Under the pieces are notes generated by a model. That model searched no databases, was not told the DNA's origin, and saw only the letters and a program-made list of their open reading frames with translations. This document shows, piece after piece, positions 3,427 through 6,400 of a stretch of 64,000 nucleotides of DNA. Every line of letters begins with the position of its first letter. The stretch's first letter is position 1. Source of the stretch: Metaphire vulgaris (lineage: Eukaryota > Annelida > Clitellata > Crassiclitellata > Megascolecidae); the NCBI GenBank assembly GCA_018105865.1, contig CM030852.1, positions 8,320,034-8,384,033 of the forward strand, in the 5' to 3' direction. A program made the translations under genes and the position numbers.

Positions 3427-6400
3427 CTACAATCAGAAACAAGTTTCATTCTAACTAACAAAGTTTAGTGTCCTGTAGATGATTCTATGTGCTCTGAAGC
3501 CTATTACAACAGATAACTGTTGACAATGCATCAACCCTGTCAGCCATAAAAAACAGATAATTTCATCTGCAGGTCCACAATCAGATCAACTAAAACTGCC
3601 TAATTTACCTCAAGTTGCTTGTTGATGGTCTTGTTTCGTTCAGCCTCTGTAATGCGACTTTCTTCTGGGCGCGGAATCACTTCATCTTCAATGATATTCA
3701 ACTCATGGCCTACAAATGATATCAAACAACTCGATCAAATCTATATATAGTATAATTATAACAAGTAAACACCTCTAACTACAAATACACAAAATTCGAG
3801 TTGCACCAATTATGCCTCTGGCCAATTATCAGTCTTGAATAATTAGCCAATCACCGATTATTGATTTTTGAAGTTTCTTAGTTAAATACTGAGTTTAATG
3901 TATTGTGAAATAATCAGATAAATGTTATTGCTTCGTTCCATCTGTAATATGCGCTCACTGGGTGACTGCACAAGAATTGAAGCAAGGTCAAACCAGTCAA
4001 CAAATTAAATAAAAATGTACACAAATACATAGCTAGTAAAATGCACCCACTTTATGGGAAACTGAAAACAGTCTTGTATTATTTCTAAGATTACTGACTA
4101 ATATATTACTTCTGTGATGAGGCAAATGCATTTAACACTGAGCGCTAAACCAAAAATCCCCCCACCACCAAAGGAAAATCACAGTTCTGAGAAATGTACT
4201 TTTTGGGTAAATTCTTGTTCCTGATGTTCTATAAAGCAAAACTATGAACAAAGGGCTGAAACGCTTTTGTTCATCCAAAATAACACGATGACATTCCACT
4301 TTGTATGATTTTAAGTTTTTACTGACTAATAATTCCATAAGGATGGGAAGTTAGCATAGTGGTTAAAACGTTGGACAAGAGAGCCAAAGACTGCAGGTTC
4401 GATACCCGCAGGAGCCCCATGGTTGATTAAGCCTCCATTCACTAGAAGGCAGTAGCAACACGAGTAGTGCAAGTGGTATACGCTGCACAAAGTAACAGGC
4501 ATGTCATGCAATGCACTAGCTCTGAATCCACGGTATTGCATGCATGGCCAAGGGAGGGTTATAGAAACGAAGATCAGCGCTGCCTTTTGAGCCCAGGAAG
4601 GACTTTGACTTTTTGAATAATTCTCTATAAACTCGAGTTCAAGGCAATCAACCTGCAACTTTTGCATTTACTTGTTTCTATAGTTGTTTTATTTAGAATT
4701 TCTATTTTCCACTAAAATTAATAATTGCACCATGAATATTTGTGCATTAATCAGTCAATATATTATAACTTAAAGCAGCTACTGAATTCCACGGAGTATA
4801 ACAAGTACAGCTGGTGCCTCTGTGGTGATTTCAAAGTGGTAACCCTTTAAATGGGACTCCATCAGGGATATACAAAATACAAGTGATTCTTATGAGAGCG
4901 GGATCGCTGAATAAAAGAATTGCACTACTTGCAGAAGAAATGGATTAGCAGACAACATGGGCGTATTTAGAAAGGCTTAAAGGGGTACGCTGAAATTTAA
5001 GAAGTTCGAAAACTAACTTTTATGCTATGTAGCCTACTACAGGCAAAAAAGGTTATCACCCTTCTCAAATGTGGTGACAAGCAAAAAAGGTTAACGTCGG
5101 CATAACAGCCTTTAAGTGCAACCGAAAGGAAGGACGAAAGACCAAAGGCCAAGAACCAAAGGGGTACGCTATGGCTCAGGAGCGTACCCCCTAAATACGC
5201 CACTGGCAGACAAAATCCTGCTACCACATCAACTAGGTTTGATGAAGAACTTCATGAAGGCAATGGGCCAGATTTCTCCAGCTTTCTGATTACAGTATAC
5301 AAGTCTGTTGACTGAGCAAGGCAAGATTAAAGAGGGAGTTTCTGTGGGTCCTCAGATTCAAGAGCTCTTCAAAGATGAACAATTCAACAATTTGCTGCAG
5401 GTTGATGCAAAACGCCCGACCTACTTGGCGCTGTGCGATTGGTTCCTGTCAGAACATCGAAGTTAAGCAATGTCGAGCGCGATTAGTACTTGGATGGGTG
5501 ACCATCCCGGGATCTAGCCGTGGTGCCGGCGGCCAACCAAGCCATTCATCGCTTAGGCGTCGATAAATTAGTAGCAGCGTTAAGCTGCGAAGGGTAAAAC
5601 GTGGCTCTAGAGAAAGTAATGGCAACCTACTCTAGATTAATAGCGCAAGCCACCTACGTTGCTGGTTTCCTAGTAACCGGAGGTCAGCACCGGCCCCTAC
5701 GCTTGAAATCGAGTATGGGACTACTTTTACCTTTACCTAATGCAAAACAAGCATGGAATATTTTTCACATTGTGTCTATAAACTTTCTTGGTAATGCTAA
5801 GGCAGAAAGCTACAAGGAACTAGTAGAAGACCTGCTAATGTATTGAAAACTTGGCTGCAATATGTCTCTAAAGATCCACTTCTTTCACATTCCCATCTGA
5901 ATTTCTTTCCTGACAAATTTGGTATGGTTAGCGATGAACATGGCAAACATATTCATGAAGAAATCGCAACAATGGAACAAAGATGCTGGGGAAAATGGTC
6001 CACTACCATGTTGGATGAATACTGCCTCATGATGCTCCCAAACAGCCATACAAGAGACATGCAAAGAAATCTAAGACATAGTCTATGGCTTGAATTCTAC
6101 AGGTATTAACCATAGGCATATTATTACTATTGTCATGCATTAGGGTAATAAACAATAAATGCAGATTACAAAAAACTAGAGCCAATTTTGTATTTTGATT
6201 GTCATATTCATGTTCAGCACATAAAACAATAAGAAATTACTACTGGTAATTTCATTTCAGTAACATGACCTTTGTAAAAATTTGTTGTCCAGTTGTTATG
6301 AGATGGTCTTCCGGTTCTGATTTACTTACTTACTTTGTATATAGATTGGTAGTCTTTGGTTGCTACTGGTCTCTTCCATTTTGATGTTTGCGCTAATGGA

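Follow-up and report, generated by a model that had tools for sequence, protein, structure and literature searches.

Two short retroposons, A and B, in a 64,000-nucleotide stretch of the Metaphire vulgaris genome (the window, analysed here as a whole) belong to two SINE families that, we consider very likely, have one body and a swapped promoter, family A probably being derived from a B-like SINE through a template switch to 5S rRNA. In SINEs, the head provides for transcription by RNA polymerase III (Pol III), and the 3' end is recognised by the reverse transcriptase of a LINE. An earlier note on this DNA had proposed a swap of a 5S and a tRNA head on a shared body, starting from the motifs TTAAGCTGCGA and AATGGCAACCTAC and a TTTACC tail; the positions of these motifs are correct, and all of them turn out to be parts of one longer alignment. 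TTAAGCTGCGA starts at 5580 (+) in A and at 42169 (-) in B, AATGGCAACCTAC starts 38 bases after that point in A and 36 in B, and the TTTACC tail is exact at 5726-5737 in A and has one mismatch at 42029-42040 in B. The layout of the elements is given in Table 1.

Table 1. Elements A, B and C of the window and their parts.
Feature	Positions	Strand	Basis or remark
Element A (family A, 5S-derived head)	5414-5739	+	query length 326
Left target-site duplication of A, ATGCAAAAC	5405-5413	+	read directly; recurs at 5740-5748
Right target-site duplication of A, ATGCAAAAC	5740-5748	+	read directly
5S rRNA-derived head of A (type 1 Pol III promoter: box A, IE, C)	5414-5532	+	Rfam RF00001, comparison with host 5S
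Start of A body, probable shortened central region of tRNA-headed elements	5533-5579	+	shuffle tests
Shared body core of A (TTAAGCTGCGA ... AATGGCAACCTAC ...), with possible 7-bp hairpin around AATGGCAACCTA	5580-5665	+	alignments; hairpin evidence weak
Shared 3' part of A: stem-loop GCTTGAAATCGAG (consensus GCTCGAAATCGAG), (TTTACC)n tail	5666-5739	+	
Element B (family B, tRNA-like head)	42026-42300	-	query length 275
tRNA-like head of B (A and B boxes, type 2 Pol III promoter)	42226-42300	-	head common to C and five sampled elements; boxes, spacing
Central region of B, common to other tRNA-headed elements of the genome	42170-42225	-	shuffle test
Shared body core of B, homologous to 5580-5665	42084-42169	-	alignments
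Shared 3' part of B: stem-loop GCTCGGGCTCGAG, TTTACC tail	42026-42083	-	
Element C: B-type tRNA-like head, different 3' half, TTTGAC-type tail	4341-4615	+	ends set by eye

Both head-body pairs occur in many full-length copies

The genome searched comprises 728 Mb in 246 contigs. With the A query, the best 40 of 4876 first-look candidates were scored and all 40, the query included, span head and body; the 39 other matches have 92-95% identity and cover at least positions 11-321 of 326. With the B query, all of the best 40 of 4121 candidates, again including the query, span head and body as well, the 39 others at 83-85% identity and each over at least about 263 of 275 positions. These copy counts are lower bounds, from a ranking that favours near-full-length matches. 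A strict pattern, 5S box C followed by TTAAGCTGCG after 60-90 bases, gave 350 exact matches and its reversed control gave 0. Many diverged A copies are present among the matches listed for the 5S pattern, and the 5S-headed form is therefore not only recent.

We sampled 28 copies of A (8 loci from the A query, including the window copy, plus 20 more) and 20 copies of B (20 of the 39 other matches to the B query). Divergence from the family consensus is 0.6-5.3% for the A copies, the window copy being the most diverged, and 2.9-9.3% for the B copies, with 10.7% for the window copy of B; both samples were picked by similarity to one query. Exact flanking repeats of at least 7 bases were found for 19 of the 28 A copies and 14 of the 20 B copies, compared to 2.9% of 756 A pairs and 3.7% of 380 B pairs in a control where the left and right flanks of different copies were paired. 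By eye, there is no clear target-site duplication at the window copy of B. Dispersed full-length copies, target-site duplications, a simple-repeat 3' end and a head derived from a Pol III promoter at the 5' end characterise both A and B as SINEs.

Because target-site duplications flank full-length copies, the repeat unit ends at the heads, and this disposes of the case, raised in the earlier note, of a body that lies inside one larger repeat. A body that is part of a larger repeat and merely stands beside unrelated heads could explain the one headless A/B body fragment (L039:6980-6858) that we found in a genome sample of 200 kb (20 stretches of 10 kb, with 2776 bases N), but since both families are full-length units with target-site duplications, and since 40 of 40 scored matches of each cover head and body, we give this explanation hardly any probability.

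A and B share one body, from the heads to the tail

When A is aligned with the reverse complement of B, a check that the earlier note had put forward, blastn returns a single alignment 157 columns long with 72% identity (E=2e-18), and the similarity is thus not confined to two short blocks. The local score is 84, whereas 1000 dinucleotide shuffles never exceed 30 and 458 other segments of the window never exceed 24. Between the family consensuses, 168 of 197 aligned body positions are identical (85%), with 19 gap columns, and the shared stretch runs continuously from directly after the heads through to the tail; the opening 40 columns agree less well (0.45 and 0.6 per 20) than those that follow (0.7-0.9). 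Given such a score and body consensuses of such identity, a chance similarity of two unrelated repeats has a vanishingly small probability.

The heads, in contrast, score only 9 against each other, with a shuffle mean of 8.3 and 387 of 1000 shuffles as high. A local alignment of the whole consensuses does continue into the heads, by some 28 bases and with lower identity; we take this run as a chance extension. Of the reading in the earlier note, the swapping of heads as modules is thus the part that is supported, with many full-length copies of each head-body pair, heads that cannot be aligned beyond the level of shuffles, and a homologous body.

A tree built from 28 A bodies, 21 B bodies and a single headless one places all B bodies in one clade (98/100); the head labels together require two changes, the minimum possible. 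Family A on its own appears as one side of a branch in 26% of the bootstrap trees, so that this grouping is not resolved; of the 47 inner branches, 41 are open, and bootstrapping had not settled. That the bodies separate by head would fit one swap, in a set of copies gathered by full-length queries, which would miss mixed head-body pairs.

Exact pattern scans with pieces of the body gave 0 matches in viral and 0 in prokaryotic contigs, and no Rfam family reached its cut-off in the body. Matches below cut-off to SCARNA7 (over a GT repeat), TLS-PK4, HOTTIP_2 and rydB (21-22.5 bits versus a cut-off of 50, on an 18-base piece of the B body) were taken as chance or simple-repeat matches. The source of the TLS-PK4 match is a hairpin, TGTGCGGTCGATAACGACCGCACA, at 35348-35412 (-) of the window.

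Family A has a head derived from 5S rRNA

The 5S-derived stretch makes up the first ~118 bases of A. While the window copy scores 27.8 bits (E=0.15) with Rfam RF00001, below the cut-off of 38, six of seven relatives are above it (42.0-48.3 bits), and the seventh is at 36. The host has its 5S genes in an array on contig C33; of 110 aligned positions, the consensus of family A and the host gene have 92 in common. In the promoter core, the internal control region, consensus and host gene agree at 48 of 50 bases; the remainder of the head, at about 44 of 61, is more diverged. Among the 28 individual copies, 48 of the 50 bases are kept in 20, and the number never falls under 45. Because the core is kept while the remaining head diverges, we believe that these values suggest a 5S promoter that is in use. 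With a head homologous to 5S rRNA, boxes A, IE and C included, family A is a 5S rRNA-derived SINE (SINE3), and the 5S head that had been claimed for A stands.

The head of family B is tRNA-like

For B, the claim of a tRNA head stands only in part. Scored against the box consensuses, 20 of 21 B copies have a Pol III A box and 13 of 21 a B box, in each case with no more than one mismatch, and the spacing between the two boxes is 33 bases in all 21 copies; with both boxes at a tRNA-like spacing, family B corresponds to the tRNA-derived SINEs (SINE2). The head is, however, not recognised as tRNA: ARAGORN reported no tRNA in the window and none in 23 sources, 20 of which are B copies, and the Rfam tRNA model is absent from the matches of the 20 B copies at E<=1. 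The Rfam tmRNA model matches 7 of these 20 copies below its cut-off, in several cases on GCGGGTTCGATTCCCGC, which looks like a tRNA T-arm. Degenerate tRNA heads are usual in SINEs. Since ARAGORN and the Rfam tRNA model reject B despite its boxes, tRNA-like is the right word for this head; it is not an intact tRNA.

The central region of B recurs in other tRNA-headed elements and in family A

In the MetaSINEs, a short central region is common to SINEs across animals. Here, the head of B is found again in element C of the window, where 87 bases align at 76% (score 69, compared to 26 for the best unrelated segment), and in five further tRNA-headed elements of the 200 kb sample (L033, L034, L036, L039 and L047). 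Element C is flanked by a possible target-site duplication, read by eye, of AATAATTC at 4328-4335 and 4616-4623. In all six elements the B head recurs together with the next ~60 bases, a region close to CTCAGCCTTCATTCGCTAGATGGCGGTGGCAAAATGAGTAGCAG, and positions 79-145 of B have a sum score of 114 against the six, versus a shuffle mean of 47.5 and maximum of 69 (0/1000 as high).

The corresponding test for A, with positions 119-185 against the six tRNA-headed elements other than B, gave a sum of 64, where shuffles have a mean of 44.1, a standard deviation of 4.3 and a maximum of 61 (0/1000 as high; 4.6 s.d.). This region of A is short and changed, and its match to the six is moderate. It rests chiefly on L033, L039 and L047, with single scores of 13, 14 and 13; L034 scores 9, and the values are low for L036 (8) and C (7). 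Against the B consensus, the start of the A body is equalled by 1 of 2000 shuffles. As controls, the 5S head was equalled against the six elements by 523 of 1000 shuffles and positions 186-323 of A by 132 of 1000. Because A keeps the central region of the tRNA-headed set after its 5S head, it has the appearance of a tRNA-headed SINE in which nothing but the head was exchanged; B in turn is a mosaic in both directions, with a head common to C and a body common to A.

Under lax scoring, the alignment of B with L033 (178 columns, 70%) extends into the body core, up to B position 179, and GGAGATCAGC, a sequence close to the 3' end of A, is present in L033 and L047 as well. The terminal repeats differ, with TTTACC in A and B versus TTTACTT or TTTGAC in the other tRNA-headed elements. 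A, B and these elements may have a distant common 3' architecture. Within L047, a piece of ~170 bases (8772-8599, minus strand) has parts that recur in L004, L037 and L039 and at 7755-7874 of the window; it is perhaps a nested repeat.

The recurrence of the B head with its central region in C and the five sampled elements, and the presence of this region in A, point to the tRNA-headed form as the ancestor, so that the tRNA head probably came first and the 5S head later. The relative divergence of A and B in the similarity-picked samples (0.6-5.3% and 2.9-9.3%) leaves the direction of the swap unsettled. Could a 5S-headed SINE instead have gained the tRNA-like head, along with the central region, of another family by recombination or template switching? 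Module exchange among SINE families is reported for hagfish (PMC7245038), and the many diverged 5S-headed copies among the matches listed speak against A being just a recent offshoot. The body of A, however, opens with a recognisable form of the central region, which in six further elements stands behind the tRNA-like head, and a 5S-first order would require either a separate gain of this region or A as the source of all of them; we thus consider this reverse order unlikely.

Hairpins, tail and the partner LINE

The body contains a hairpin of TCTAGAG/CTCTAGA in A and TCTGGGG/CCCCAGA in B, with 7 of 7 pairs in both consensuses. Two double changes separate the families, a result reached by 54 of 500 shuffles (four sequences), with 13 of 500 for paired cells; conservation of the hairpin by compensatory changes is suggestive only. 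Possible stems in single elements also led us to consider whether the central region has a conserved RNA fold, an idea that we rejected: the consensus of seven sequences folds with -1.1 kcal/mol and 5 pairs, none of which has double-sided changes.

In 337,545 bases, 96 of 96 matches to the tails of A and B lie within 150 bases of a SINE body, and tail matching within these bases found no partner LINE. The window itself contains a LINE at 29157-32438 (-), with several open frames, a reverse transcriptase domain (PF00078) and an AAT repeat after it; its 3' end is unlike the SINE tails. A second LINE, at 53458-57910 (-), has endonuclease and reverse transcriptase domains and open frames of 811, 287 and 246 aa, and is followed by a TTGA-type repeat at 53087-53119. 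Further features of the window are an exon of an ALKBH1-like dioxygenase gene at 47649-48425 (-; phmmer to PDB 6ksf, E=2.3e-14), and a short array of TAACCC-like (telomere-type) units at 61752-61806, internal to the contig.

The identical type of 3' tail in both families would also be expected if no swap between A and B had taken place, and body and tail had come from one LINE or an older shared element to which two promoters were joined independently; a LINE origin of SINE bodies has indeed been proposed (stated in PMC8010984). However, because A and B are similar right up to the heads, the central region of the tRNA-headed set included, A holds more than the 3' end of a LINE, and we regard independent joining as distinctly improbable.

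Proposed origin of family A

A and B are two families of non-autonomous retroposons that would be copied by a LINE. B is built from a tRNA-like Pol III promoter, the central region and the body core, and ends in a 3' stem-loop with TTTACC repeats; A has a 5S rRNA-derived stretch for its first ~118 bases, and then a shortened central region, core and tail as in B. In our proposal, each head would drive transcription by Pol III, through type 2 boxes in B and the type 1 internal control region in A, and the common 3' end would be the recognition site for the reverse transcriptase of one partner LINE, which would copy both by target-primed reverse transcription. Family A may have arisen in a single event, in which the reverse transcriptase, while copying a B-like RNA, changed over to 5S rRNA as its template close to the border of head and body; the new 5S promoter would have been retained because it was functional.

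Relation to known SINEs

The swap of promoter modules in SINEs is already known from fish, mammals and moths. The comparisons below draw on partial texts of the papers cited, and likeness is judged by description. Closest in kind are HaSE1 (tRNA head) and HaSE3 (5S head) of Helicoverpa armigera, which have body and 3' tail in common, with 94% between the consensuses in the 3' region; the authors proposed template switching, and the tails match an RTE-type LINE (PMC3272025). The A/B pair has the same make-up, 5S and tRNA-type heads on a homologous body and tail with many copies of each, but is found in a different genome. In DeuSINEs, 5S heads occur in AmnSINE1, SINE3 and OS-SINE1, and tRNA heads in LmeSINE1, SacSINE1, BflSINE1 and SINE2-3_SP (PMC3747384); they resemble A and B in having both head types within one superfamily, but come from distant species with several partner LINEs, whereas A and B have one genome and one tail. 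For the springhare SINEs Ped-1 (5S) and Ped-2 (tRNA, ID), the same partner LINE, BovB_Pca, is listed (PMC3747384); like A and B they combine 5S and tRNA heads within one genome, the partner LINE being all that is listed as common.

Hagfish SINEs combine, in one genome, heads of two types with bodies of three groups and tails of six (PMC7245038); modules are mixed within one genome there as here, but the hagfish heads are 7SL and tRNA, and those of A and B are 5S and tRNA. High identity despite different heads is reported for the lepidopteran ObSE2 (tRNA) and PxSE4 (5S) (PMC8010984), which belong to two moth species, whereas A and B are found within one genome. The available part of a bivalve transposon survey (PMC10294476) has nothing comparable to A and B. 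Our literature searches listed no account of the A/B pair, and we do not claim that it is absent from print.

We speculate, as a tentative and rather doubtful reading, that the central region and body core may form a SINE superfamily domain outside the nine highly conserved ones reported by 2019 (PMC6887750). The basis for this is the central region kept in seven tRNA-headed elements and in a 5S-headed family, along with the core hairpin, the compensatory changes of which are suggestive only. If this were true, domain and tail would be the selected unit, and the promoter would be interchangeable.

It has been argued that 5S-headed SINEs are weakly transcribed (PMC3272025). The A/B pair is a clean example of promoter replacement in a SINE within one genome, in which two kinds of Pol III promoter, each present in many copies, stand before a homologous body and tail. 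One could thus compare directly what a type 1 (5S) and a type 2 (tRNA) promoter each do for the success of elements that are otherwise similar.
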